Origin: a virus
Reading direction: 5' to 3' (one strand)
Length of the DNA stretch: 64,000 bases
IMG/VR virus record: IMGVR_UViG_3300036845_000456
Location: 16,968 to 80,967 of that record
Numbering within the stretch: position 1 is the first letter of the stretch; each line of letters opens with the position of its first letter. The position numbers and the translations under genes are program-made. Below the pieces are notes generated by a model. The model did not search any database, was not told the origin of the DNA, and saw nothing but the letters and a program-made list of their open reading frames with translations. Shown here in pieces: positions 3,836 through 18,132 of the stretch.

Positions 3836-5710
3836 ATGCCGATCAGTTTCGCCCAAATCCCGCAAAATCTGAAAGTCCCACTTTACTGGGTGGAGGTGGA
3901 CCCCTCCATGGCTGGTCTGCCGTCGATCAACCTGCGTGCGTTGATTGTTGGTACGGCGACCGGCGGCACGGCTGAGATGAACATCACGATTCCGATCGGG
4001 TCGCAGGCGATGTCGTCGCAGTTCTTTGGCGCCGGGTCGGAGATCGACCGGATGTTCAAAGCGTACTACGCGAATAATTTCGCAAACGAGGTTTGGGGAT
4101 TGCCTGTTCCGGCATCAGTCAACTCGGAAAAAGCCACAGGTGAAATCAAGATCACGTCGCCCTGTACGGCGGCGGGCACGATCGCACTCTACATCAGCGG
4201 CGAGCATGTGCCGACCAACATTGCCACCACCGACACCACGGACGACATCGCCAATGCGATTGTTGATTCGATCAACAATTGGTTTGGGATCGGGACGATT
4301 GGCAATGCGACGTCGTTGCCGGTGACGGCGACGATGACGCCAGCGGTGGCGAGCGCGTCGCAGGCCATCAACGCGGCGACGTGGAGCAACACGCCGACTG
4401 GGCAGGCGACCTACACCACTACGGCGCCGCACAACTTCACGGTCGGCGAGCAGGTGCAAATCACCGGCATTACGCCAGCCTCCTACAATGGGACGTTCGT
4501 TGCCCAAACCGGCACGACCGGATCAACCATTGTCGTGCCGATGCTGAACAACCCGGGAACTTACGGCTCGGGTGGAAGTGCCGCCGGACCGCCGACGGCG
4601 CCGTCGCAAGTCAATCTGCTGTGCAACTGGGCGGGCATCAGCGGCAACGACATTCCGATGATGTTGAACTACTACGGCTCGCGCGGCGGCGACGTGACGC
4701 CGGTCGGGCTCGGCATCACGGTTGATCCGTTCCTGACGGGCGGCACCGGCACGCCGGACTTCACGACCGCGCTCAATTCGCTCGGGAATGAACCTTACGA
4801 ATATGTTTGTATGCCTTACACGGACTCCGACAGTTTGTTTGTTTGGGAACAAGAATACGGGTTCTCAGACACGGGCCGTTGGGGTTGGGAGCGTCAACTA
4901 TTTGGTCACATTTTCTCGGCGCGGCGTGGGGTCAGCACCGGCTCCGCCGACAACGGTTATCCCGATCTTGTGCTGTGGGGCGAGACAAACAATTCGGGCG
5001 TGGTGTCGGTGATGGCGTTCGAGAACGCCACGCAGTCGCCGATGTTCGAGGCTGCGGCGGCCTACACCGCCAAGGCGCAGCGGGCATTGGTCAATGATCC
5101 GGCGCGGCCGTTGCAGAGTCTGTCCCTCAATCAAATCAAGCTGGCGCCGATCCACCAGCGATTTGATTTCCCTGAACTGAATTCGCTCGCCAGCAATGGG
5201 CTCGCGATCCAGATGCCGGGCACCGACGGACAGCCGATGATCGCCCGCGAACAGACCACCTACCAGTGGAACCTGTACGGCGCCACCGACGACGCCTACG
5301 AGTTGGTCACGACGCTGGCGACCTTGGCCAAGCTGATGCGCAATCAGAAGGCCATGGTGACCAGTTCGTTCCCGCGCCACAAGCTTGCCAATGACGGCAC
5401 CAAGTTTGGTCCAGGGCAAGCGATCGTTACGCCGGGAATCATCAAAGGCGCACTGGTCGCGCAATATCGCAATGATGAATTCAACGGCCTCGTGGAAAAT
5501 GTGGAGCTATTCAAGCAGTTCCTGATGGTCGAGCGAGACAGCGTGGACCCCAACCGCGCTAATGTCTTGTATCCGCCTGACCTTATCAATCAGTTGCGTA
5601 TCTTCGCAGTGCTGAATCAGTTCCGCTTGCAGTACGGCCGTGGAGTTGATGAGGCAATCATCGGTCCGGCGCCGGGGCCGTTCCTGGCCTCGTCGCAGGC
5701 CAACGGCTAG
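3836..5710 (+). CDS. Tail sheath protein (Mu gpL-like)
   Basis: A protein of 624 residues. Its N-terminal phrase on PSINLRALIVGTATGGTA, its C-terminal half with VTTLATLAKLM and PGIIKGALVAQYR, and its position directly before the tube gene identify a contractile tail sheath of the Mu/P2 kind, the outer cylinder that contracts during DNA delivery. A Thr/Gly-rich beta segment (about residues 185-260, with TTTAPHNFTVGEQVQI) looks like an inserted surface domain not needed for the sheath core. ATG at 3836 follows a GGAG ribosome site. Confidence 0.85.
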   Translation: MPISFAQIPQNLKVPLYWVEVDPSMAGLPSINLRALIVGTATGGTAEMNITIPIGSQAMSSQFFGAGSEIDRMFKAYYANNFANEVWGLPVPASVNSEKATGEIKITSPCTAAGTIALYISGEHVPTNIATTDTTDDIANAIVDSINNWFGIGTIGNATSLPVTATMTPAVASASQAINAATWSNTPTGQATYTTTAPHNFTVGEQVQITGITPASYNGTFVAQTGTTGSTIVVPMLNNPGTYGSGGSAAGPPTAPSQVNLLCNWAGISGNDIPMMLNYYGSRGGDVTPVGLGITVDPFLTGGTGTPDFTTALNSLGNEPYEYVCMPYTDSDSLFVWEQEYGFSDTGRWGWERQLFGHIFSARRGVSTGSADNGYPDLVLWGETNNSGVVSVMAFENATQSPMFEAAAAYTAKAQRALVNDPARPLQSLSLNQIKLAPIHQRFDFPELNSLASNGLAIQMPGTDGQPMIAREQTTYQWNLYGATDDAYELVTTLATLAKLMRNQKAMVTSSFPRHKLANDGTKFGPGQAIVTPGIIKGALVAQYRNDEFNGLVENVELFKQFLMVERDSVDPNRANVLYPPDLINQLRIFAVLNQFRLQYGRGVDEAIIGPAPGPFLASSQANG

Positions 5711-5755
5711 ACCAACAACAATCAAAAAACCAAACAGTCAACCCAAGCTGACCAA

Positions 5756-5770
5756 GCTCGGTGCGGAGCG
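5756..5770 (+). repeat. Leader repeat upstream of the tube gene (copy 2)
   Basis: GCTCGGTGCGGAGCG is identical to 15 of the 16 bases at 3793-3808 and lies 32 bases before the tube start. It forms a short hairpin. The flanks of the two copies differ apart from a shared A/C-rich context, so the element itself appears conserved. Confidence 0.55.
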
Positions 5771-5802
5771 ACGTCGCATAACCGCAGCGAGGATATAACC
5801 CC

Positions 5803-6168
5803 ATGGCACAGCGCTTTGCTGGAATCGCCTTCCTAAACGTGGACGGCGCGCAACTGGCTTTGCGTGGAAATTTCACTGTGTCGCCATCTCCGGTCGAGCG
5901 AACCATGATCGCCGGCCAGGATGGCGTTCACGGCTATCAGGAACTTCCACGCGTGCCCTACATCGAGGGCGACATCTCGACCGTTCCCGGCTTCTCGTTG
6001 GAAGGGTTGCTAACAGAAACTGACAGTACTGTTGTTGCTCAATTGGCAAACGGGATGCAGTACACACTTTCTGGAGCAACTTGCAAAGGCGGCTTCGAAG
6101 CCAACACCCGCGATGGTCAAGTGCGGGTTAGGTGGGAAGGACTGATCTGCGACGAGTTGCCGATCTAA
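5803..6168 (+). CDS. Tail tube protein (Mu gpM-like)
   Basis: A protein of 121 residues with the pattern of Mu-type tail tube proteins: a short N-terminal strand, a VERTMIAGQDGVHGYQE segment near residue 31, then EGDISTVPGFSLEGL and a final beta hairpin with RVRWEGLICDELPI. It forms the inner tube through which DNA passes. Its position directly after the sheath and before the tail chaperone is canonical. The leader contains an AGCGAGGA ribosome site. Confidence 0.82.
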   Translation: MAQRFAGIAFLNVDGAQLALRGNFTVSPSPVERTMIAGQDGVHGYQELPRVPYIEGDISTVPGFSLEGLLTETDSTVVAQLANGMQYTLSGATCKGGFEANTRDGQVRVRWEGLICDELPI

Positions 6169-6202
6169 CAAACAACTAATCCAAACAACAAGAAGGTGAT
6201 GC

Positions 6203-6712
6203 ATGAACGAACACGTCGGTGCAATCAATCAGCTTACCGAGCAGCAGCGCCGTGCGGGCCAGCCGCGCGGGCGAGAGGGCTTTGTTCAAGGGCAGGTGCC
6301 AACCGCCGAGCCGACGCCGAAGACGATCGAGCCGCCCCGGCCACCGGCTCCGCATCCGGGGCCCGAGATCGAGGCGTCGCCAGCGGAGCTTGATGCGGCG
6401 GCGCCATCGACCGAAGAACTTTGGCCGATCGTGGTGAAGCTGTCGTTCAAGTCGATCCGCAACAACAAGGGCGAGACGGTCAACGAACTGTCGTTCCGCG
6501 AGCCCAAGGGCGGCGACATCAATCGCTATGGCAATCCGGTGCGGATGAACAGCCAGGGCGATTGGGTGATCGAAGAACGCAAGATGCACTATGTCATGGC
6601 GGCACTCTCCGATATCCTGCCGCCGTTCCTCGATCAGATGGACCCGCGCGACTGGAATTTCTGTGCCTATGAGTTGATGCGTTTTTTTCTTCCCAGTCGT
6701 CGGGTCTTGTAG
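6203..6712 (+). CDS. Tail assembly chaperone, unshifted product
   Basis: The short form, 169 residues, shares its first 162 residues with the frameshifted form and ends in a seven-residue-long tail after the slippery site. The N-terminal 60 residues are Pro/Glu-rich and the conserved core lies at about residues 70-160. In well-studied phages both forms are required in a fixed ratio during tail assembly. Ribosome site AAGGTG lies before the ATG at 6203. Confidence 0.75.
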   Translation: MNEHVGAINQLTEQQRRAGQPRGREGFVQGQVPTAEPTPKTIEPPRPPAPHPGPEIEASPAELDAAAPSTEELWPIVVKLSFKSIRNNKGETVNELSFREPKGGDINRYGNPVRMNSQGDWVIEERKMHYVMAALSDILPPFLDQMDPRDWNFCAYELMRFFLPSRRVL

Positions 6713-6873
6713 GCAACGAGGAAGACATCGTCCTCGATTGCTATCGGCTCGCCCACTACTATCACCAACCCCCCGACTTGTTTCTGGCCATGTCATTGGC
6801 CGACGTGCGTCTGCATTTGCGGCGCACATCGCAACTCGCGCGCCTAATGCGACGGGACTCTGATGGCGACTGA
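6203..6873 (+). CDS. Tail assembly chaperone, -1 frameshift product (gpE/E'-type)
   Basis: Translation in the first frame gives a 169-residue protein ending at the TAG at 6710-6712. A slip of -1 at the T run 6682-6688 continues to the TGA at 6871-6873 and gives 223 residues. The first part contains the phrase NELSFREPKGGDINRYG and then LPPFLDQMDPRDWN, the mark of Mu-like tail assembly chaperones that prepare the tape measure for tube assembly. The extension is helical (DCYRLAHYYHQPPDLFLAM), as in known E' extensions, and overlaps the tape measure start by 11 bases. Such a frameshift is conserved in this position in many tailed phages. Confidence 0.75.
6682..6688 (+). promoter_or_regulatory. 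Canonical -1 ribosomal slippery heptamer T TTT TTT
   Basis: Seven T bases sit in exactly the phase required (X XXY YYZ): T is the last base of a CGT codon and the next two codons are TTT TTT. Slipping back by one base leaves both tRNA-Phe anticodons fully paired. It lies eight codons before the zero-frame stop, and the -1 frame stays open to 6873. Confidence 0.8.
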
Positions 6874-9800
6874 GCAACAAGTTCTCACCCTCACCACGGA
6901 ATTCAATGATCAGGCTTCGGCGGCCATCGCCGGGGTGCGGCAGGCTATTGACCAGTTGAGCGGGCCCGCTGTGCGCGAGGCGCAGCGGCGCGTGAATCAG
7001 GAGATGGGCGAATGGGAGAAGGCCGTTCGCAATCTCGGCCGCGAGGCATTGGGGGTCGGGCGCGCGTTCGGTGATCTGGTCAAAGTCATCGGGCCGTTCC
7101 CGGTCGCGGCGGGGTTGGCTGGTTATGAGATCACGCGGATCATTCGTTCGTCGGCGGAATGGTCGCGCGGTGTTGTTGAGATGAGCAACGCCGCCAAGAT
7201 GGCGGGTCTGAGCTTCGGCGAATTCAAAGGCATTTCTGAGCAGATGCAGCGCATGGGCCTGACGGCTCGGGAAGCTTCGGCTGGGATAGCCGGCTTCAAT
7301 CGCGCCTATGCCGAAGTGCTGACGAGCGGCGGCAAGCGCGCCGAGATCATGAGCCTCGCGGGCATGGGCTATGCGCAGAACATGGCGCAAGTGTTGCTCA
7401 ATCTGCGCGGTATTACGGACGAGACGGATCGGCTCAATGCGGTTCGGCAAGCTGGCGAGAATGTTTATCAGAATGCGGTGAATGACACGCACGACACGGT
7501 CATCGCCCGCTATCGCGAGCGGCAGTTCCTGGCAAAATTCAACGCCGAGTTTCTGATCAACATTCACCGCGATCTGAACAAGGAAGACGTCAAGCGCATG
7601 CAAGCGCGCGATGAGCTTAGCACGAAGGCGCGCGAGCTTAACGAGGCGATGACGGAGGAAGCGCAAACACGGGAAGAAATTAACGAAAAATGGAATGAAT
7701 TTCTGGCTGGTCCAGAATTGAAGATGATCCAATTGTTGATCGATATTGAAAAGAACATTCTGGCGCGGATGGAGCAAACGGCACCAGCATTTGGCGTCGG
7801 ACCAGCAGCGCCAGCGCGGCCGGGTCAAACAAACACGCCGGGTCCGAGCGAATGGTCATGGGGCTCAGCCTTCGGCATGGGCAAGCCTGCGTCGGCGCCA
7901 TCGGCTGCGCCGCTTCCGCCGCCCCAAGGTCTTGCTGACCAGCTTGGACTTGGGACGCTCGGCGGCCCGGCGGCCGGGCCTGCGACCGGCGCGGCGAAGT
8001 TTTATGGATTCACTGATGCGGGAAACGGCGGCGGATCGATCGCCGACAACTGGCGCCAATCGGAGAACGTCGAGGACGATCGCAGCGGCCAGTTCGATCA
8101 GAACACCAACGAAGTTCGCCGGCTCAATGACAACCTGCAACGGATTCTTACCCTGACCAAGCCCGGCGGCGGTCTGGCTGGGCAACTCGGCTTGGGTAAC
8201 ATCAGCAGCCTGGGTGGGGGCGGCGGCGGGGGTGGTGGTTATCGTGGCACTACGGGCACAACAGGCACGGATGGCACGAGTCCGACAACACCGCCCCCGC
8301 CTCCGGTAACCGGTCCGACAGGCACGCCGCTCGCGGCAGTGACGGGCGGCCAGCCGTTCGGCATCAACGTCAGCCCGGAACGGTTCAGCCAGATAACCGG
8401 CTTGCCGCCGAGCTTCATGAACGTCACGGCGGGGCAACGCGCCTACGCTCGCGGCATCAGCACGGGGATGGGGCCGGGCGGCGTAGGGGTTCGAGATGCT
8501 AAATTTGTAGGTGGGAAACCAGCGGCGGATTGGCCGACGACGGCGGCGCCCGGCAGCGGCGGCGGTTTTGGTGCGACCGGAACTGTAACGGGAACTGGTG
8601 CGAGTATCTCTGGGAGAACATCTATCGCTGAGCTTGAGAAAAATTCTCAGGCTCAAGCGGCGATTGCTAGGTTTGCCGCAGCGAATCCGAACGTCACGGA
8701 TGCCAAGACTCAGCTTTACAGTCTAGTGGCAGGCGAAAGCGGCTTTGGCAGGGACATGAGTCCTGGCAGGAAGTACAGCGGCTACTTCCAAATGGGGCAG
8801 GAAGAAACTTTTGCCGCCACCGGCCAACGCATCTCCGGTGCACAATTGGCCGCTATGCCTTTTGACCAACAGCTAGATATCTATACCAAGTGGGTACATC
8901 ACGCTTCCCCAAACGCAACCAACCTTGGTTTATTTAACGCTGCCAGCAATCCGGCATTTCAGACCGCGTCAGATGACACCGTTGTCTATCATGCCGGTAC
9001 TAGGGCGGCTCAGCAAAATGCAAAAACATGGGGTGCGAACAGTCCTGGTGGTCCAGGGGGCGACATTACTGTTGGTGGCATCAAAAAATACTATTCTCGC
9101 GGTGACACTGAAACAAATAGACAGATTGCAGCGGCAGGCACCCCGGCCGCGACTACCGCCGTAACATTCGCCGGCACGGGCGGCCCACAAGTTACTGAAA
9201 CACTCCCGAGCGGCGCGCAAGTCATACGCGGCGCGGCGACTACGGCGGCGGTGACAGGCGTCAATCCGTTGTTAACAGGAATAAACCCGACCACTGGCGG
9301 TTCAATCGATAAAACGGTTCTGCAACAAGCCGCGCTAATAGCTGGATCAACCGGCAGCCATCAGGCAGTCTACAATTTCATCAAGAGCCAGGGCCTGACA
9401 TATACCTCAGGTGAAAACTGCGCCGAGTTTGTCACTGCGGTGCTGTCAAAGGGGGAGGGCCTCGCGCCCGGCCAGTTGCCGGCGGGCGTGAAGTCGGATT
9501 ACCCGGCGGCTGCATCCTATACGCACTACGGCGATGCGGTGGATGCGTTGCATGCTCAGCCCGGTGACGTCCTCGCTAGGCACGACGCGGGAGGCAGTCA
9601 CGCGATGATCGTCGGGCCTGATGGCTACGACCCCAAGACCGGGACGCTGAATATCTTATCGGCCAACAACGATGCGAACCTTCATATTAAGGTCGGCCCA
9701 AATGGAAAGCTCCCGGGGTACTACGGCAACTTCCGCATCGGCCACCTGAACATTGGACCACCTAAGACTGCTACGACCGCGCAAGCTGCGGTTAGCTCGA

Positions 9801-10198
9801 CCGGTCTTCCGACTGATCCCTTCGCGTGGCCTAGCGGTGCATCAGAAACTGCTGCTGATTCGATCAGGCGAATGAATGCGACTGCTTACGGGGGCGACAA
9901 GGGAATGACGCTCCCGAGCACAGATATCCTTCCCAAGAAGGATGACGTTCTGACGGGCAGTCGCTGGGATACCGGCGATGTCGAAGCCGATCGCGCGACT
10001 ATTGATCAAACCGCGCAGGCTGCGCGGATCAAGCAACAAGCGCGCATTCATCTCAAGATCGCGCACAAGAACGCCCCGGCCGATGTGTCTGCCAAGGCTG
10101 ACGGCGACGCCTTCAAGGGCCACACGATGGAGCGCACCAACGCGCCGCCGCCGGAAGCGCCGACCAAGTTTAAGGCCGGCGGGTTGGAGTTTGCCTGA
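6863..10198 (+). CDS. Tape measure protein 1 with transglycosylase-like and Cys/His peptidase-like domains
   Basis: A protein of 1111 residues after the tail chaperone, hence the tape measure that sets tail length. Residues 1-300 are helical, with a hydrophobic stretch near 70-95 (VIGPFPVAAGLAGYEI). A Gly/Pro/Thr-rich middle (about 300-590) follows. Residues about 590-735 resemble a lytic transglycosylase, with SLVAGESGFG carrying the likely catalytic Glu. Residues about 810-965 look like a CHAP/NlpC-P60-type amidase, with GENCAEF (Cys near 851) and GGSHAMIVG (His near 912). Its N-terminal 270 residues are clearly paralogous to the next gene. The enzymatic domains would open the cell wall during injection. 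Confidence 0.75.
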   Translation: MATEQQVLTLTTEFNDQASAAIAGVRQAIDQLSGPAVREAQRRVNQEMGEWEKAVRNLGREALGVGRAFGDLVKVIGPFPVAAGLAGYEITRIIRSSAEWSRGVVEMSNAAKMAGLSFGEFKGISEQMQRMGLTAREASAGIAGFNRAYAEVLTSGGKRAEIMSLAGMGYAQNMAQVLLNLRGITDETDRLNAVRQAGENVYQNAVNDTHDTVIARYRERQFLAKFNAEFLINIHRDLNKEDVKRMQARDELSTKARELNEAMTEEAQTREEINEKWNEFLAGPELKMIQLLIDIEKNILARMEQTAPAFGVGPAAPARPGQTNTPGPSEWSWGSAFGMGKPASAPSAAPLPPPQGLADQLGLGTLGGPAAGPATGAAKFYGFTDAGNGGGSIADNWRQSENVEDDRSGQFDQNTNEVRRLNDNLQRILTLTKPGGGLAGQLGLGNISSLGGGGGGGGGYRGTTGTTGTDGTSPTTPPPPPVTGPTGTPLAAVTGGQPFGINVSPERFSQITGLPPSFMNVTAGQRAYARGISTGMGPGGVGVRDAKFVGGKPAADWPTTAAPGSGGGFGATGTVTGTGASISGRTSIAELEKNSQAQAAIARFAAANPNVTDAKTQLYSLVAGESGFGRDMSPGRKYSGYFQMGQEETFAATGQRISGAQLAAMPFDQQLDIYTKWVHHASPNATNLGLFNAASNPAFQTASDDTVVYHAGTRAAQQNAKTWGANSPGGPGGDITVGGIKKYYSRGDTETNRQIAAAGTPAATTAVTFAGTGGPQVTETLPSGAQVIRGAATTAAVTGVNPLLTGINPTTGGSIDKTVLQQAALIAGSTGSHQAVYNFIKSQGLTYTSGENCAEFVTAVLSKGEGLAPGQLPAGVKSDYPAAASYTHYGDAVDALHAQPGDVLARHDAGGSHAMIVGPDGYDPKTGTLNILSANNDANLHIKVGPNGKLPGYYGNFRIGHLNIGPPKTATTAQAAVSSTGLPTDPFAWPSGASETAADSIRRMNATAYGGDKGMTLPSTDILPKKDDVLTGSRWDTGDVEADRATIDQTAQAARIKQQARIHLKIAHKNAPADVSAKADGDAFKGHTMERTNAPPPEAPTKFKAGGLEFA

Positions 10199-13017
10199 TG
10201 CCCTCGCGCACCGAAGAAGTCGTGTTGCGGGTCAGCCTGATTGCTGATGACGAGGCAACGAAAAAGGTTCAGGCGCTCAATCAGCAACTCAGCCAACTTG
10301 GCCAGCCGGCACAGCACGCGGCGCAGGCGGCGACGAAGCAAGTTGGCGAATTCGAAAAAGCGCTCGGCAATCTGGCGCGCAGTGCGCTCGGCGTCACCAG
10401 TTCTTTAGTCGATCTGGCCAAGGTTATCGGGCCGGTCGGGGCCGGGGTGGCGCTGCTCGGCGTCGAGCTTTTCCGCAGCATCGGGCAGGCCAAGGAATGG
10501 GCCCGCGCCGTCGTGGACATGGGCAACGCGGCGCGCATGTCGGGGATGCAGCCGGGCCAGTTTCGCGATCTCGTTCAGCAGTTCCAGCGGGCCGGTGTCA
10601 GCGCGCAAAACGCGATGCAGACGATCGCGCAATTCAATCGCGCGACCGCCGAGCTAACCATGGCCGGCAGCGCGCGGCGTGATTCACTGTTGCGGATGTC
10701 GGGCGCCTATCGCGACCAAATGGCCGATGCCATCATTCGGGTTTCGACATATCGAACGACCTATGAAAAGTTCAACGAGGTTCGGCATCTCGGAGAGAAT
10801 GCCTACAACAACGAACTAGAGAGATCGGGTGACAAAACGCTGGCCCGTGAAAAGCAATTGATGTTGTTGGAGCAGTTTGGCGCATCGTGGCTGATCAACG
10901 TCAACAAAGACTTTACGCAGGCAGACGAGAGGCGTCTTCAGAATGCCGAAAAGGCATCCGAAAAGGCCAGCGAATTGAATGATGCGTTGACGGAGGAAGC
11001 GCAGACCCGCGAGGAAATTTTCAACAAAACATTAGGCTGGACGACTGATCTTGAAATCCGCATTGTCAAATTGGGAACCTTGCTTGAATCAAACATTTTA
11101 GATCGACTGAACCAAGTAACGGACCCGTGGGGTACGCACCAAGGGGCCGGGGCACCCGCGCGACCAGCGCCGCCAGCGCAATCACTGGGTCAACGTTGGC
11201 GAAATGCGTGGGGCATTGGTGGCGGGCATCCGGCCGCGCAATTCCTCGGCGGCGACGCGGCAGATGTGCTGGGCCTTGCTCCGGGCTCGCTCGGCCATGG
11301 TGACATCACGAAAGGCTGGCGGCACTCGGAGAACGTCGAGGATTCGCGCGATGCGCTCCAACAACATGTCGATGACGTCGCAAGGCATGGCACGGCGGTT
11401 GATACCAGCACCAAGGAATTCCACCAACTCAATCAGAACGTCGAACGGCTCATAGACAACGGCGTATTTGGTCCGCCGGTCGCAATGGCTAAGGGCGGCG
11501 TTGTTAGAGGGGCCACGCATGCGCTTGTCGGCGAAGGGGGGCCAGAAGCGGTTATTGGCAGCAAGGGCGGAATGGCCGTCGTTAACAAACCGACACATAT
11601 GGTTCTCGGTGCGGATCAAACACATGCGGTTGTGCCGCTTAAAACGGGCTACGGGACTGCTGCGGTTACGGAAGGCCAAGTGGCGTCTGCCGCAGGCGCG
11701 GCGCCACCACGGCCCCCTGGTGGTCCGGGTGGCGTAATATCGCCCGCAATCCTTCATGAAGCAGCGGCAATCGCCAAGACGGGTAATGAGGGAGCAGTCA
11801 AAGCATATATCCAATCCAAAGGTGTGCATGTTGACGACGCTTGGTGCGGCGACTTCGTTGGCTCGATGATTAAAGCATCCGGCGGCGGTCTGCCCGAGGG
11901 ATATGCGACCGGTTCAAGTTATTTGGCAAGGGGCTATCACGTTGATCCCGAGAACGTTCGACCAGGAGATTATGCAGCCTTCGAGATCGGCACGCACGGC
12001 AAATACAAAGGACTACCTGTACCGCCCGGAGAAGCCGGCGGTCATATCGGTGTTGTTGGTGAGGGCGGCTACAACCCGGAAACCAAACAATTTGAGATGG
12101 TTCAAGCCAATGTCTCGCGGGACTATTGGCGCTCGCCCCAAGGCATTGAATTTCGTCGCCCCTATGATGTTGGATCGGCTGATGCCGCCGCGATCGCCTA
12201 TGGTCATGCGCTGTCTAGTACGCCTATGATGATGGCCGAAGGTGGCACCGTTGTTCCGCAAGGTCACATCCCGCCGCGCTCACTGTTCTCAAAACAACAA
12301 TTCCAAGATTATTTGGAACGCACGCAAGCCTTGTCGAACCCGGTCAGCGATATCGGTGCGGCGATGCAACGCGGCGCTGCCGGCGCGGCTCCGTGGCTCG
12401 GCCCGGTTTCCGATTATCGCGGCGCGGCGACACCAGCCGAGGCGCTGAGTCATGCGACGTCGTCACGTTTATGGAGTGCATTCAGGGCCGTTGGTGGCGC
12501 AGCGGTGTCGCCGATTACGGGTGCTGTCGAAACGACTGTCGGGCGCGCCTACGCGGCACTGACCGGGATGTCGCGCGAACAGGCAAACGAGGCCGCCGGC
12601 ACGGCGGTTTCAGCGGCGCGTGGAATACCCGCGATTAGTGATGTTACGCCGATGACTGGTGCCGCAAGAATGATCATGCAGGGGCTGAAACAAGGCGGGT
12701 CATTGGCGCCGCCGCAATCGCTCAGCGAGCTTGCCGGTGCTGGCGCGCTGCCCGCTGCCACCGGTCCTGCGACGGGCGCGGCAACGTTCACCGGGCGCGA
12801 GGACGATCGACGCGCGCTCGATCGTTCATTTGGTGGCGGTTTTGGCGGCGGCATGACCGAAGGCACGATCACGATCGAGCATCAGGAAACCGGGCGCAGT
12901 GGCCCGCGCAAGGCACCGCTGTTCCGCAAGCCACAGATTGCTCGGCAAACGCAGATGCAGCCCGCCGAGCACGGTCCCGACAATCATTGGTCGAACAGTG
13001 AAGATGTGGTGCACTGA
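10198..13017 (+). CDS. Tape measure protein 2 (tandem paralogue) with Cys/His peptidase-like domain
   Basis: A protein of 939 residues whose ATG shares the last base of the previous stop. Residues 40-260 match the first tape measure in order: RSALGV then LAKVIGPVGAGVALLG, an AVVDMGNAARMSGM stretch, ELNDALTEEAQTREEI, and later WRHSENVEDSRD. It lacks the transglycosylase-like part but has its own amidase-like domain at about residues 520-680, with AWCGDF (Cys near 549) and GGHIGVV (His near 614). Gly/Ala/Pro-rich segments follow. Whether it is a second tape measure or a hub- or tip-located hydrolase is unresolved. Confidence 0.65.
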   Translation: MPSRTEEVVLRVSLIADDEATKKVQALNQQLSQLGQPAQHAAQAATKQVGEFEKALGNLARSALGVTSSLVDLAKVIGPVGAGVALLGVELFRSIGQAKEWARAVVDMGNAARMSGMQPGQFRDLVQQFQRAGVSAQNAMQTIAQFNRATAELTMAGSARRDSLLRMSGAYRDQMADAIIRVSTYRTTYEKFNEVRHLGENAYNNELERSGDKTLAREKQLMLLEQFGASWLINVNKDFTQADERRLQNAEKASEKASELNDALTEEAQTREEIFNKTLGWTTDLEIRIVKLGTLLESNILDRLNQVTDPWGTHQGAGAPARPAPPAQSLGQRWRNAWGIGGGHPAAQFLGGDAADVLGLAPGSLGHGDITKGWRHSENVEDSRDALQQHVDDVARHGTAVDTSTKEFHQLNQNVERLIDNGVFGPPVAMAKGGVVRGATHALVGEGGPEAVIGSKGGMAVVNKPTHMVLGADQTHAVVPLKTGYGTAAVTEGQVASAAGAAPPRPPGGPGGVISPAILHEAAAIAKTGNEGAVKAYIQSKGVHVDDAWCGDFVGSMIKASGGGLPEGYATGSSYLARGYHVDPENVRPGDYAAFEIGTHGKYKGLPVPPGEAGGHIGVVGEGGYNPETKQFEMVQANVSRDYWRSPQGIEFRRPYDVGSADAAAIAYGHALSSTPMMMAEGGTVVPQGHIPPRSLFSKQQFQDYLERTQALSNPVSDIGAAMQRGAAGAAPWLGPVSDYRGAATPAEALSHATSSRLWSAFRAVGGAAVSPITGAVETTVGRAYAALTGMSREQANEAAGTAVSAARGIPAISDVTPMTGAARMIMQGLKQGGSLAPPQSLSELAGAGALPAATGPATGAATFTGREDDRRALDRSFGGGFGGGMTEGTITIEHQETGRSGPRKAPLFRKPQIARQTQMQPAEHGPDNHWSNSEDVVH

Positions 13018-13020
13018 GCC

Positions 13021-13605
13021 ATGGCCTCGATCTTCGCCGTCAGCACCAAATATCATAAGCAATTCATCGGCAATCCATGGCGCGATGATCTCGTGCCAGC
13101 GTCGTTTCGCGGCGCCGAGTTTCATTGCGAAGCAAACAGTTTGGAGAGTGGCCGCCGCTTAGTGCAGCACGAATTTCCCAAGCGTGATATCAACTATTGC
13201 GAGGACATGGGACACAAAGCCATTAGCTGGACGGTGCGTGGCTATTTGATTGTCTATCCGGTGGACGTGACCGGGTCCGATCTTTATCAGCGCGACTACC
13301 GCACCCCGCGCGATGCGCTCTATCGGGTGCTGGCGGACGGCCAAGCTGGCGTTTTGCAGACGCCGACATATCCGCCGATCAGCGTATGGTGTCAGCGTTT
13401 TCGCTTTACTGAGGAAGAAAAGCTTGGCGGCTACTGCACGGTCGATATGACGTTCTTCGAGGCGGGCACCGAAACCTACGCGCTGCAAGACACGCGCACC
13501 GCGCTGATCAACACATCGACTGACTTACGCGACCGCGTAGTGACGCAGTTGATCGGCGTTCAGACGGGTGTCGCCACGCCGATAGCGCTAGTGCCGGGAT
13601 CATAA
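13021..13605 (+). CDS. DNA circularisation protein N-terminal domain (Mu gpN-like), split gene part 1
   Basis: A protein of 194 residues with the start of the DNA circularisation N-terminal family: PWRDDLVPASFRGAEF, then GRRLVQHEFPKRD, then EDMGHKAISWTVRGYL. In Mu, gpN is one protein of about 490 residues in the tail/baseplate. Here the family ends after the N-terminal domain and the second half is a separate gene four bases downstream. It probably acts in the central baseplate hub. Confidence 0.7.
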   Translation: MASIFAVSTKYHKQFIGNPWRDDLVPASFRGAEFHCEANSLESGRRLVQHEFPKRDINYCEDMGHKAISWTVRGYLIVYPVDVTGSDLYQRDYRTPRDALYRVLADGQAGVLQTPTYPPISVWCQRFRFTEEEKLGGYCTVDMTFFEAGTETYALQDTRTALINTSTDLRDRVVTQLIGVQTGVATPIALVPGS

Positions 13606-13609
13606 ACAA

Positions 13610-14278
13610 ATGGACAAGGTTGACGCGCAAGAGGCCAGCGGCATCGTGATCCGCATGATGACGCAGCTTGCGGCGACCGTGCCGGCGAGCGGTGTCAGCG
13701 GCGCCAGCGCCAGGGCGGCGATCGGCGACGTCACCGCCAACGCCTATATCTGGCTGCGCAACGATACGCTCGGGCCGCCGCTCAACAACGTGTTCCTGCT
13801 CGCGGTGCAGAACGGCTGTACCTATCAGCAAATGGAGATCGTGCGCGCCTCGATCGTCGCCGAAGCACCGCAGACGCTGGGCGCCGTGCTGGTGCAGAAT
13901 TGCGGCATCGAGCTATGCCTCGCCAGCGAAGGTGAGATCATCGCCAATACGGCGTTCGTCAGTCGGCAAGACGTGCAGATGATGAAGGAATCGATTCAGC
14001 AGCCGTTTCAGGATTCGATCGAGATTGCTGCCGATGACATGGATCAAGAGACGTTCGCCGATATAAGCGCGCTCTACGCGGCGGTGACCAACCATCTTGT
14101 GGTGACCGCGCGGCCGTTGCCGCAGTTGCTGAATTATCGGTTCAATCAAGTGCTGCCGACGCTGGTGATTGCGCAGCGGCTGTATGCCGATGCCAGCCGT
14201 GCCGACGAGATCAGGGCGGAAAATAAAATCGTCCATCCTTTGTTCGCGCCTGTCGAAGGCGTGGCGTTATCCGCGTGA
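13610..14278 (+). CDS. Mu gpN-like C-terminal half, split gene part 2
   Basis: A protein of 222 residues, mostly helical, ending in PLPQLLNYRFNQ...VIAQRLYADASRADEI, the conserved end of Mu gpN/DNA circularisation proteins (typically 'PLPR..tYr....lPsLvlAqRlYgD.sRadEi...N.v.HP.F'). It has its own ATG 5 bases after the stop of part 1. There is no sign of a frameshift because the linker is clean. The two proteins probably assemble together. Confidence 0.65.
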   Translation: MDKVDAQEASGIVIRMMTQLAATVPASGVSGASARAAIGDVTANAYIWLRNDTLGPPLNNVFLLAVQNGCTYQQMEIVRASIVAEAPQTLGAVLVQNCGIELCLASEGEIIANTAFVSRQDVQMMKESIQQPFQDSIEIAADDMDQETFADISALYAAVTNHLVVTARPLPQLLNYRFNQVLPTLVIAQRLYADASRADEIRAENKIVHPLFAPVEGVALSA

Positions 14279-14284
14279 ACTCAC

Positions 14285-15559
14285 ATGCCGCCAACTCAGT
14301 TCAAGCCGTCGGAAATCGCCACGCTTAATGTCAACGGCATTAACTATCGAGAATGGGAAACGGTGTGGGCGCAAGAGCGCTGGAACGAATCGTTTTCGTT
14401 TTTTCGTTTCACCACGGCCGAGCGCAAGCCGATCCCGCTCAGCGCGGCGATTACCTTGGCCGACATACAGGCAGGCATATTCGGGACGCAGCCGATTCCA
14501 GATATCCCGGTCTATGTCTGTGACAAGCTCGTACTGACGCTAGGCGGTTCGCCTGCGATCGCTGGCTACGTCACGCAGCGCCAAGTCGCCTACGACAAAG
14601 AGCGCCATCAGGTATTGCTGATCGGCAAGTCGGCAACGTTCTGGCCGTTCAAGTCGCACATCAAGACCGAACAGGCCAAAATGGACGGCTTCGACATCAT
14701 GAAGGTCGCCAATACGCTGATCGGCCCGCTCGGGGTGACAGTGCGGGCCGTTGGCGCTCCTGACTCGCGACCATTCGATAAATTGCAGGCGCCGCCGGGC
14801 GGAAACATTTGGGAGTTTTTGGAAAAGCTGGCGCGTCAACGCTCGGCGATTCTCGGCTCCAATGCGGCGGGCGAAGCGTTGCTGATCTTCGATCATACTT
14901 GGGGCTCGGCGGTCGATACCTTGGCCGAAGGCGTCAACATCAAAAAGATGCAGGCGGTCATTTCGATCGAGGACCAGTGGGGCGATATCGAAGTGCTCGG
15001 TCAGACGTCCGGCGACGACCAGAAAAATGGTCCCGACGCCAATGAAATGGTGGCCCATGCCAGCGGTCAAAGCTGTATCGCGGCCAATTGCGTCATCCCG
15101 GTCGAGGAACCGGTTCGCGGCCAGGATGAACTTCAGACGCGCGCCGACTTCGAAGCCAAGTGGACGGATGGCACGAAGAAAACAGCGTTGATCACGGTGT
15201 ATGGATGGTTCAGCGCATACGGGCTTTGGCATGCTGGCCAGAATGTTGCTGTGTATTCGCCGAGCGTTCCGTTGAATGAAGTGATGAAAATCAAAACCTG
15301 CACCTGGACGCAGGACAGCGAGAACGGCACCGAAACCGTGCTCGAATGCGTGAACCCGGCCGCACTCAACGACGACACGCAAATCAACGTCGGCAATCCG
15401 CTTTCGACGGCCGATCCCGCGCCAGCGAATATCAAGAACGTTAAGTACAACATAACCGATATTCGCGCGGCGATAATCGGCGCGAGCGGCAGCGACATTT
15501 TCCTGAAGCAAGCGCTGGCGCCGAAAGACTTACCAGAAACACCGATCCCAATGCCGTGA
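14285..15559 (+). CDS. Baseplate hub protein (Mu gpP / gp44-like)
   Basis: A protein of 424 residues. It starts NVNGINYREWETVWAQ, has ITLADIQAG... and a YVTQRQVAYDKERHQVLLIG segment, and a middle with WEFLEKLARQRSAILGSNAAG. This is the domain order of Mu gp44-type hub proteins (relatives of T4 gp27), which form the trimeric centre of the baseplate. Its place between gpN-like and gp45-like genes matches Mu exactly. Confidence 0.78.
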   Translation: MPPTQFKPSEIATLNVNGINYREWETVWAQERWNESFSFFRFTTAERKPIPLSAAITLADIQAGIFGTQPIPDIPVYVCDKLVLTLGGSPAIAGYVTQRQVAYDKERHQVLLIGKSATFWPFKSHIKTEQAKMDGFDIMKVANTLIGPLGVTVRAVGAPDSRPFDKLQAPPGGNIWEFLEKLARQRSAILGSNAAGEALLIFDHTWGSAVDTLAEGVNIKKMQAVISIEDQWGDIEVLGQTSGDDQKNGPDANEMVAHASGQSCIAANCVIPVEEPVRGQDELQTRADFEAKWTDGTKKTALITVYGWFSAYGLWHAGQNVAVYSPSVPLNEVMKIKTCTWTQDSENGTETVLECVNPAALNDDTQINVGNPLSTADPAPANIKNVKYNITDIRAAIIGASGSDIFLKQALAPKDLPETPIPMP

Positions 15560-15568
15560 GGTAGAACC

Positions 15569-16480
15569 ATGGTGCATCGCGCAACAGGCCAAGCCACATC
15601 ATTTCGCGGCTACATCGGCGGGGGCGCCCGCTCAAGCGTCGATACAATCAACGACACCACGCTCATGCAGAGCATGGCGGGCAACTTCATGAATGGCGAG
15701 TCGCGCGAGGGGATCGAGGCACCGCAGAACTACGGCTCAAGCTCGATTTGTCTACCGGCAGTCAAGGATATCTTGGGCAAAATCCAGCAATGCGCGGAAG
15801 TCGTGCAGAACTTCATCGGTGGTAGCCGCTCGTATCCAATCGCCGGTAACATGGATGATCGTCGCCACCGTCTCATGGGGCTTGACCCTGGCGACAACTC
15901 GATGTTCTCGACACAGGGCCGGAAGCAACAAATCCAGATGGCTGTGGAAGGAATATTCCACAGCCTGCCGATGGATAAGACCATGCGTATGGCGCTGCTC
16001 GATGAGCAGACCGAGCAGGATATGAGCAGCAAGAGCTATCAGAATCAGCAGACGGCGCAGCAAGCTGGCGGGCGCGCGCATGAAGCGGCGCGGGAGGCGT
16101 TGCGTTTCGGCATTATCAAGGACCTGATGCAGCCGCTGGTCAAGCCGAGGCGCGGAGTGCCGACTCTGTATGACCCCGGCGGCACCGGCAGCGCCACGGA
16201 GGGGACCAACGCCTTCGGCAGCTACGGCGGCGGCAACCGCATGGGGCAGAAATCGCTGAAGGACAAAAATCAGCAGTCCAAGCGCTTCATGCATCTGACT
16301 CAGGATGAAGCGGCTTCGAGCGGCACCAACGTTCGGCACTATTTGGATGACGGCAACGGCTACTATGAAGTCAACACGGACAAGAATGTTTATGTGGGTG
16401 CGTTGAAGGGCAAGGGCAGCTTCGCAAAAATCGTCACGCTCAAGGGCCCGATGAAAAACGGCTTGGGCAAGATTGGCTGA
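15569..16480 (+). CDS. Baseplate spike / assembly protein (Mu gp45-like)
   Basis: A protein of 303 residues in the Mu gp45 (gpV-like) slot. The N-terminal third lacks a clear motif. The C-terminal part, with FMHLTQDEAASSG and Gly-rich beta turns, is where an OB-fold and spike helix would lie. It probably forms the membrane-piercing tip of the tail. The call relies on synteny more than on motifs, and the N-terminus looks longer than in Mu. Confidence 0.6.
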   Translation: MVHRATGQATSFRGYIGGGARSSVDTINDTTLMQSMAGNFMNGESREGIEAPQNYGSSSICLPAVKDILGKIQQCAEVVQNFIGGSRSYPIAGNMDDRRHRLMGLDPGDNSMFSTQGRKQQIQMAVEGIFHSLPMDKTMRMALLDEQTEQDMSSKSYQNQQTAQQAGGRAHEAAREALRFGIIKDLMQPLVKPRRGVPTLYDPGGTGSATEGTNAFGSYGGGNRMGQKSLKDKNQQSKRFMHLTQDEAASSGTNVRHYLDDGNGYYEVNTDKNVYVGALKGKGSFAKIVTLKGPMKNGLGKIG

Positions 16481-16486
16481 TCGCCC

Positions 16487-17047
16487 ATGCCGCCAGTTCC
16501 CGCAAGACGCTGGGATGTGCCGGCGCCGAGCCCGTGCCCGGACATCCGGCTTGTCCAGAATCTCTACTTTCCGAAATACTCGGTCACGCTGGATTGGCGG
16601 TTGCTGGATGACGGTCGGCTTGACGATACGCAAGCGCTCGCCACCGCACTGTGCGTCGCGCTCGGCACCGACGGGCTCGCTTCGACCGACGATCAGCTTC
16701 CTGATCCTGACTCCAGCGACCGCGAGGGTTGGTGGGGCGACTTCGATGCTGGTCCGATCTGGAACGGCTGGCCGATCGGCTCGAAGCTGTGGTTGATGCG
16801 GCGCGCGGCGATCGAAAGCCCGAACGCCTTGCGCGGGGCGACCGTCGCGCGGATCAAGCATTACATCTTCGCCTGCGTGCAGCCGTTCGTGGATAACCGT
16901 ATCGCCACGACCTACACGGTGAACGTCGTGCGCGCCGATGTGCAACGAATCGATGCTTTGATTGTCGTCTATCGCGGCAACACGCCAGCCGTCGAGTTGC
17001 GCTACGCGATTCTGTGGGACGAATTCGTCAGCACCGCCTCCCGGTAA
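16487..17047 (+). CDS. Baseplate wedge protein (Mu gp46-like)
   Basis: A protein of 186 residues with DWRLLDDGRLDDTQALATAL near residue 35 and REGWWGDFDAG...GSKLWLMRRA, the core phrases of the phage GP46 family (a gp25/gpW-like wedge). It links the hub to the outer baseplate. It starts 6 bases after the previous stop and precedes the gp47-like gene, as in Mu. Confidence 0.8.
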   Translation: MPPVPARRWDVPAPSPCPDIRLVQNLYFPKYSVTLDWRLLDDGRLDDTQALATALCVALGTDGLASTDDQLPDPDSSDREGWWGDFDAGPIWNGWPIGSKLWLMRRAAIESPNALRGATVARIKHYIFACVQPFVDNRIATTYTVNVVRADVQRIDALIVVYRGNTPAVELRYAILWDEFVSTASR

Positions 17048-17055
17048 ACAATCCC

Positions 17056-18132
17056 ATGCCCTGGTCAACGCCGACTTTGCGCCAAGTGCGCAGCCTTGTG
17101 CGCGACAACGTCAACGCCATTCTCCCAGGCGCGGACGCGGCCGTGCCGAACAGCGTTTTGCGCGTCGTGTCTGATGTGACCGGCGCGACCTGTCATCTCA
17201 CGCTGCAATATGTTGATTGGTTAGCTTTGCAGTTGCTGCCAGACACCGCCGAATCAATTTGGTTGGACCGGCACGCCAACATATGGCTGGTGAATGACGA
17301 CGGCTCGATCGGCCGTAAGGTGGCGACGCTGGCCAGTGGCATCGTCAACATGAGCGGCAATATTTGGGCCGTCATTCCAGCCGGAACATCGCTGAACGTC
17401 GGTTCAGTTTACTACGAGACAACGCAGCAAGTGACGGTGACATCAGGCTCGGCGCCTGTGCCTGTCCCGACGCGCGCGATTGATCCTGGCGCCGCTGGCA
17501 ATCTCGATCCCGGCGCGACAATGGGCGTGAATGCGGCGGTTGGCATTGATCCGACCGCGACCGTCGTGACGATGCAGGGAGGCACCGACACCGAGACGGA
17601 CGAGGAATTACGTTCGCGGGTGTTACTGCGGATTCGCGAGCCACCAATGGGTGGCGATGCGACCGACTACGTTGAATGGGCGCTCGCGGTCCCTGGCGTA
17701 ACGCGCGCATGGCCGTTCCCGCAAGAGATGGGCATCGGCACGATGACCTTGCGCTTCATGATGGACGACTTGCGCGCGGGCAATGGCGGGTTTCCATTGC
17801 CGGACGATGTCGATGCGGTCGCCGCCTACATCAACAAGGTACGGCCGGTCACCGTCAAAGACATGTTTGTCGTCTGCCCAATCCCCTATCCGGTCAACGC
17901 GCGCATCGCGTATCTGGATGCCGATAATCATGCGGTGCATGACGCCATCGTCACCAGCTTGTTGAACCAATTCCTGGTGCGCTCGAAGCCTGGGCAGACG
18001 TGGTATCGCGCGTGGCTCGATGAAGCCATCATGAGCGCGCCCGGCGTCAACGCGTATGATCTGATCGCCAGCGATGTTGCGATGCCAAGCAGCGGCTACA
18101 TGCCCGTGCTGGGCGACGTGACTTATGGATAA
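17056..18132 (+). CDS. Baseplate J-like protein (Mu gp47-like)
   Basis: A protein of 358 residues with the baseplate J pattern: LRQVRSLVRDNVNAILPGAD at the start, the WLDRHANIW... segment, NLDPGATM in the beta core, and TETDEELRSRVLLRIREPPMGG followed by DYVEWALAVPGVTRAWPFP. It is the wedge that couples sheath contraction to the hub. ATG at 17056 was chosen over an in-frame upstream start because the upstream one lies inside the preceding gene. Confidence 0.85.
   Translation: MPWSTPTLRQVRSLVRDNVNAILPGADAAVPNSVLRVVSDVTGATCHLTLQYVDWLALQLLPDTAESIWLDRHANIWLVNDDGSIGRKVATLASGIVNMSGNIWAVIPAGTSLNVGSVYYETTQQVTVTSGSAPVPVPTRAIDPGAAGNLDPGATMGVNAAVGIDPTATVVTMQGGTDTETDEELRSRVLLRIREPPMGGDATDYVEWALAVPGVTRAWPFPQEMGIGTMTLRFMMDDLRAGNGGFPLPDDVDAVAAYINKVRPVTVKDMFVVCPIPYPVNARIAYLDADNHAVHDAIVTSLLNQFLVRSKPGQTWYRAWLDEAIMSAPGVNAYDLIASDVAMPSSGYMPVLGDVTYG

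Follow-up and report, generated by a model that had tools for sequence, protein, structure and literature searches.

The length of a phage tail is usually ascribed to one tape measure protein, which is homotrimeric where it has been seen. In phages JBD30 (PMC11445458) and 80alpha (PMC7048315) a tape measure trimer occupies the tail channel, its C-terminus lying in the core of the baseplate, and in XM1 the length of the tape fits that of the tail (PMC10457771). The tapes of PHROG 2276 and its kin, such as XM1 gp10, JBD30 gp46, 80alpha gp57 and P1 Sit, have in common with the locus described here a match to PHROG tape measure families, a long helical N-terminus, a frameshifted chaperone upstream and, often, a peptidoglycan-hydrolase module on the C-terminal side. 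Each of these phages has a single tape gene, and wherever the oligomer has been resolved or inferred it is a trimer of a single protein, whereas the present locus has two diverged paralogues with complementary C-termini.

The locus lies within the window, the whole 64,000-base stretch of DNA that was analysed (bases 16968-80967 of a record of 80,967 bases from an uncultivated virus). The window has a Mu/SfV-type contractile tail cassette (3836-18132), identified with Pfam and PHROG by its ordered genes from the sheath to baseplate J. Gene order and gene families are common to modules of this type, and the sheath has 40-43% identity with SfV-like phage sheaths; unlike these modules, the cassette has two tapes and a circularisation/hub gene that is split in two. 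Its features are as follows.

3836..5710, + strand: tail sheath (Pfam Phage_sheath_1C, 2.8e-12; phrog_165, 1e-132)
5803..6168, + strand: tail tube (Pfam Tail_tube, 2e-30)
6203..6712, + strand: tail assembly chaperone, G-like product (Pfam Phage_TAC_7, 2.5e-7)
6682..6688, + strand: in-frame slippery heptamer T-TTT-TTT, for a GT-like product (sequence)
6863..10198, + strand: TMP1, alpha-type tape measure protein, 1111 aa (phrog_2276, 5e-8; homology to TMP2, E 4e-67)
10198..13017, + strand: TMP2, beta-type tape measure protein, 939 aa (PHROG matches; homology to TMP1)
13021..13605, + strand: DNA-circularisation/hub protein, N-terminal part of the split gene (Pfam DNA_circ_N, 4e-17; phrog_184 positions 5-156)
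13610..14278, + strand: hub protein, C-terminal part of the split gene (phrog_184 positions 292-403, 1e-18)
14285..15559, + strand: baseplate hub, Mu gp44-like (Pfam Gp44-like_2nd, 1e-9; phrog_177, 7e-39)
15569..16480, + strand: Mu gp45-like baseplate spike (Pfam Phage_Mu_Gp45, 2e-7)
17014..18132, + strand: baseplate J wedge (Pfam Baseplate_J, 5e-52)

The -1 frame of the chaperone gene is open past the heptamer as far as a stop at about 6871-6873, just beyond the start of TMP1, and an in-frame slippery heptamer is present in 15 of the 17 loci examined, single- and tandem-tape alike. It seems that a single G/GT-type chaperone pair serves both tapes. As regards the other genes of the cassette, the split of the Mu gp43-like circularisation/hub gene (about 190 and 222 aa) is shared by most relatives. 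Window-type sheaths have 624 aa, some 100 residues more than the approximately 520 aa of most relatives, the extra length being an inserted Ser/Thr/Gly-rich stretch (AATWSNTPTGQATYTTTAPHNFTVGEQVQITGITPASYNGTF) at roughly residues 170-250 of the 3836-5710 product. In two relatives (L070 and L071) an inserted 1574-aa ORF, with no assigned function, separates the chaperone gene from that of the tail tube.

The sequence-only reading had described two tandem paralogous tape measure genes here, and this was confirmed, both ORFs being complete at the coordinates listed, homologous to one another and matched by PHROG tape measure profiles. TMP1 and TMP2 have 34% identity and 51% similarity over 441 residues (BLASTP, E 4e-67), the alignment being collinear through ALGV..VIGP, EEAQTREEI and SENVED, and a second HSP pairs their Cys/His domains (32%, E 5e-9). 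The in-order alignment of the first 270 residues, as originally noted, is thus correct and in fact an underestimate of the homology. The profile search proposed with that reading matched both proteins to the tape measure family phrog_2276 (TMP1 5e-8, TMP2 4e-5), while TMP2 additionally matched the tape measure profiles phrog_13674 (2e-6) and phrog_167 (3e-9). The genes also occupy the position of a tape, downstream of the tube (5803) and the frameshifted chaperone, with TMP2 directly after TMP1, the stop of the latter and the start of the former overlapping by one base (TGATG). Both are members of known tape measure families. Searching cultured phages (INPHARED) by tblastn with TMP1 and TMP2 gave no match to either, and a sequence search of the PDB returned nothing significant.

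The domains of the two proteins are as follows.

6863..7780, + strand: TMP1 N-terminal helical tape domain, residues 1-306 (profile A5; helical in a low-confidence model)
8618..9145, + strand: TMP1 lysozyme/transglycosylase-like stretch, residues 586-761, by motif only (conserved in the TMP1 orthologues of L004 and L008)
9317..9670, + strand: TMP1 CHAP-like Cys/His domain, residues 819-936 (iterated CHAP profile, 3e-26)
10198..11118, + strand: TMP2 N-terminal helical tape domain, residues 1-307 (profile A5; low-confidence model)
11749..12111, + strand: TMP2 CHAP-like domain, residues 518-638 (iterated CHAP profile, 4e-30; Pfam CHAP, E 0.018)

In low-confidence AlphaFold models (mean pLDDT 36 for TMP1 and 37 for TMP2, from seven-row alignments and carrying no information on oligomers), helices span residues 16-306 of TMP1 and 4-304 of TMP2. 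Foldseek with the two models gave no match below E 0.001, which at such confidence is not evidence of different folds. The tape domain is followed in both proteins by a conserved stretch, WRxSENxED..LNxN, up to about residue 425. The CHAP assignments were made via an intermediate profile, iterated from relatives with a Pfam CHAP match, and such iterated E-values are optimistic; searched directly, the Pfam CHAP family matches TMP2 at E 0.018, under its curated cut-off, and does not match TMP1. Residues 586-761 of TMP1 show the expected E-S-G..YFQMG..YHAG motifs, and had no significant match in Pfam, PHROG or the PDB by which to place them in an SLT/lysozyme family; a profile comparison with the SLT domains of relatives also gave no support. 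The transglycosylase-like domain called earlier in TMP1 consequently holds at the level of its motifs. As for the idea that the two proteins carry different enzyme domains, TMP1 does have this one extra motif-level domain, but the CHAP-like domain is common to both.

Relatives were sought by scanning IMG/VR with both proteins, their N-terminal profile and two sheath profiles. Genome contigs searched directly with the N-terminal profile gave no relative, and the sheath then served as bait to reach relatives in genomes. Both tandem members are present on 13 non-redundant contigs (the window, L004, L008, L027, L052, L055, L056, L057, L073, L101, L102, L151 and L187), and four partial contigs (L003, L009, L012 and L025) are consistent with a tandem pair. 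The tandem genes are no more than 10 nt apart, with a one-base overlap in most. An assembly artefact as the source of the pair was ruled out, given its presence on 13 contigs with diverged copies. The comparison set consisted of 45 complete single-tape relatives. The single-tape relatives, IMG/VR contigs and the Bradyrhizobium prophages L016 and L017 (one tape each), share with the window the tail cassette, the tape domain and the pool of hydrolase modules, and differ from it in having one tape gene with both of the C-terminal elements described below. No tandem pair was found in sequenced hosts: there was a single match per genome in 391 genomes of the Bradyrhizobium cytisi family, and surveys of the order (397 genomes) and class (385 genomes) around L017/Bradyrhizobium cytisi likewise gave single matches per genome only. 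The carriers of the pair are some soil phages, with Bradyrhizobium-like bacteria as their putative hosts. In two further contigs the tape is seemingly divided into two ORFs, of 433 and 614 aa in L134 (5059-8162), and of 341 aa (fused to the chaperone) and 611 aa in L138 (3336-6802). The second ORF of each has an alpha element and a beta-like end, the cause being either gene fission or a sequencing frameshift.

In a tree of the N-terminal domain, the tandem copies fall in three separate clades, each apart among single-tape phages: A, the window type (support 100/100), B, with L056, L102 and L187 (100/99), and C, with L151 (100/98). The sisters of clade B are the single tapes L045, L062, L072 and L105, and that of clade C is the single tape L197, together with L169, whose contig ends inside the tape. 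Branching within clade A is only partly resolved in this tree. The AU test rejects the grouping of all tandem rows as one clade (p 4e-8), a clade of B and C (p 2e-6) and the placing of all alpha-type copies together (p 7e-65). In agreement with the tree, the first copies of clade B are C-terminally like the B-type single tapes (GKLTADxNAP...KTExNR). The N-terminal domains of the two copies in one phage are 28-57% identical, so that gene conversion, which could homogenise N-termini, would have to be old. Altogether the phylogeny supports at least three separate doublings of the tape gene (A, B and C), and the tape measure duplication suggested by the sequence-only reading is strongly supported as old, conserved and recurrent.

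Single tapes end in the consensus ..GKisVDVNAPkGTxVxAxGgGlFKxxExNRQTQMePA.., in which NAPxGT was termed the alpha element and RQTQMxPA the beta element, the alpha loop being about 20 residues ahead of RQTQM on one chain. In the window, these are divided between the two proteins.

10046..10117, + strand: TMP1 C-terminal alpha element (IHLKIAHKNAPADVSAKADGDAFK), beta absent
12943..12978, + strand: TMP2 C-terminal beta element (RQTQMQPAEHGP), NAPxGT absent

Both elements were scored with profiles built from single tapes only, every single tape being scored leave-one-out. All 45 single tapes have both elements (alpha 9.9-23.3, beta 12.8-29.7). The alpha-type copies (n=14) score 6.3-21.6 for alpha and no more than -0.4 for beta, which is lost in 14/14, and the beta-type copies (n=10) score 3.4-27.2 for beta and no more than 1.6 for alpha, lost in 10/10. 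Complementary retention of alpha and beta holds in all three duplications, with no exception among the scored tapes, including L151 (clade C) and L187, both of which were found after the pattern was recorded. Certain elements are altered. The alpha loops of clade A read NAPADV, NAPPDV or NASADT, and NAPADV, at the same aligned site, scores 6.5, about the 95% level of shuffled sequences (6.4) and under their 99% level (9.8); the beta element of L151 is degenerate (QPTQMEH) and scores 3.4 vs a 95% shuffle level of 2.4. The alpha-type copy is upstream in clades A and B and downstream in clade C (L151), so the division of the two elements is not a matter of gene order alone.

This last point bears on the idea that truncation at the duplication junction removed beta from the upstream copy without functional meaning. 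Such an event would suit clade B, in which the first copy stops where RQTQM would start (NRTMPLQ, then the overlapping start); however, the loss of alpha from the partner copies is left unexplained, and in L151 it is the downstream copy that lacks beta, a reversed order which excludes simple truncation as the whole cause. We regard this explanation as extremely improbable. The two genes could also encode serial tapes, with TMP1 and TMP2 stacked end-to-end along the channel and the tail length being their sum, as two full-length genes in order might suggest. In such an arrangement alpha and beta, neighbours on the chain of a single tape, would sit one tape length apart, and stacking does not require domains of equal length; it is thus considered very unlikely.

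Where measurable, dN/dS is 0.03-0.45 in both copies and both halves, the estimates being unreliable for pairs with saturated dS and for the shortest partial contigs. Both copies are under purifying selection where measured. Both also retain the tape domain of about 307 residues, the ends of which agree within 0-2 residues in 9/9 complete pairs, while a difference of no more than 2 residues in tape domain length is seen in about half of the single tapes compared pairwise at 30-60% identity. The equal length may be inherited from the ancestor, and since there are only three independent duplications it is supporting rather than decisive.

The sequence-only reading had offered two functional interpretations, that one copy had become a tip protein or that alternative tapes set the tail length, and neither is favoured by these data. 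In the first, one protein would set the length and the other, derived from a tape, would have no part in this and would deliver hydrolases from the hub or channel as a plug or tail-tip lysin. The enzyme modules of the two copies do differ, and reciprocal C-termini are also compatible with docking at different spots of the hub. However, a whole tape domain of equal length is kept in both copies of every complete pair and under purifying selection, the helical domain shows no decay in either copy, and the order of the alpha and beta types is swapped in L151, all of which make such specialisation unlikely. In the second, each virion would take one of the two tapes, giving two tail types or a switch. 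Both genes are intact, as this would require, but each copy is without an element kept by all 45 single tapes, the tape domains are equal in length and the genes overlap and have one chaperone common to both, so this is rated as highly improbable.

Hydrolase modules (CHAP, SLT, Phage_lysozyme2, Amidase_2 and M15) are swapped freely among these tape proteins, and the notion that enzyme modules are partitioned as rigidly as the C-terminal elements was dropped, the modules being shuffled. A side observation concerns L010 (5574-9827), a single tape-like protein of 1417 aa with no match to the TMP-type tape domain: the CHAP-like domain of TMP1 is 77% identical to the first of its two tandem Cys/His (CHAP/TIGR02594-like) domains, a likeness which, judged by sequence, is probably module exchange between distant phages. 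The free exchange of modules would suit an explanation in which the chief reason for keeping two genes is a larger set of hydrolases; constructive neutral evolution would then account for the C-terminal partition as a neutral side effect, and a mixed tape would bring no benefit in itself. However, the single tapes L038, L105 and L154 already hold two modules on one chain, so that duplication is unneeded for this, and the reciprocal loss still demands both chains at one place. This explanation appears quite unlikely.

What is preferred is that TMP1 and TMP2 are the two halves of a heteromeric tape, co-assembled side by side in one tail, to which we give slightly better than an even chance. By analogy with the tapes of other phages, each chain having lost one of two neighbouring C-terminal elements, both would be needed together at the hub to replace an ordinary tape, and it is for this reason that a heteromer with its chains side by side is judged more likely than alternative or end-to-end tapes, or than a tape accompanied by a tip protein. 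Co-assembly in one tail, hub docking by alpha and beta, the stoichiometry and the hydrolase activity are inferred, the docking role being borrowed from other phages. The one-base overlap suggests that one transcript would yield TMP1 and TMP2 through coupled translation. A single G/GT-type chaperone would handle both chains, which would then run alongside each other through the channel of one tail, with their helical domains, equal in length at about 307 residues, making one mixed bundle. The C-termini of both chains would meet in the baseplate hub, where TMP1 would supply alpha (the NAPxGT strand-loop) and TMP2 beta (RQTQMxPA), together rebuilding the C-terminal anchor. With a CHAP-like peptidoglycan-hydrolase module on each chain, one tail could deliver several predicted hydrolase modules. 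The mixed bundle would need an adjusted hub, given that known tails have a homotrimeric tape. Such a tape would have its origin in a tandem duplication; by subfunctionalisation each copy would then have lost the C-terminal element that the other retained, and from that point neither would be dispensable. The fuller proposal, that this is an obligate heteromeric tape, with paired chains in every tail forming one ruler and a composite hub anchor, and that duplication with reciprocal loss gave rise to it on three or more occasions, we hold to be evenly balanced between true and false.

Recurrent duplication with identical reciprocal loss amounts to a natural mutagenesis experiment separating two functions of the tape C-terminus and naming the residues behind them, NAPxGT and RQTQM; it also makes the copy number of the tape and the arrangement of its bundle testable. 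If true, it would stand as a clear example of parallel subfunctionalisation, here in a structural protein of a virus. The literature searched, which takes in only a minority of subscription papers, yielded no phage described as having a pair of paralogous tape measure proteins, so that a precedent may exist; a match on SuMu deals with homologues that were named on the basis of mass spectrometry. Judged by the literature searched, the paired, complementary tape arrangement is new. Duplication and specialisation of tail parts, as here, are described for the tail proteins of RcGTA (PMC7296036) and for Tub and BplB of phage P1 (PMC9024508); in these the multiplication affects other tail proteins (in P1, tube-like proteins), whereas in the present case it affects the tape measure.
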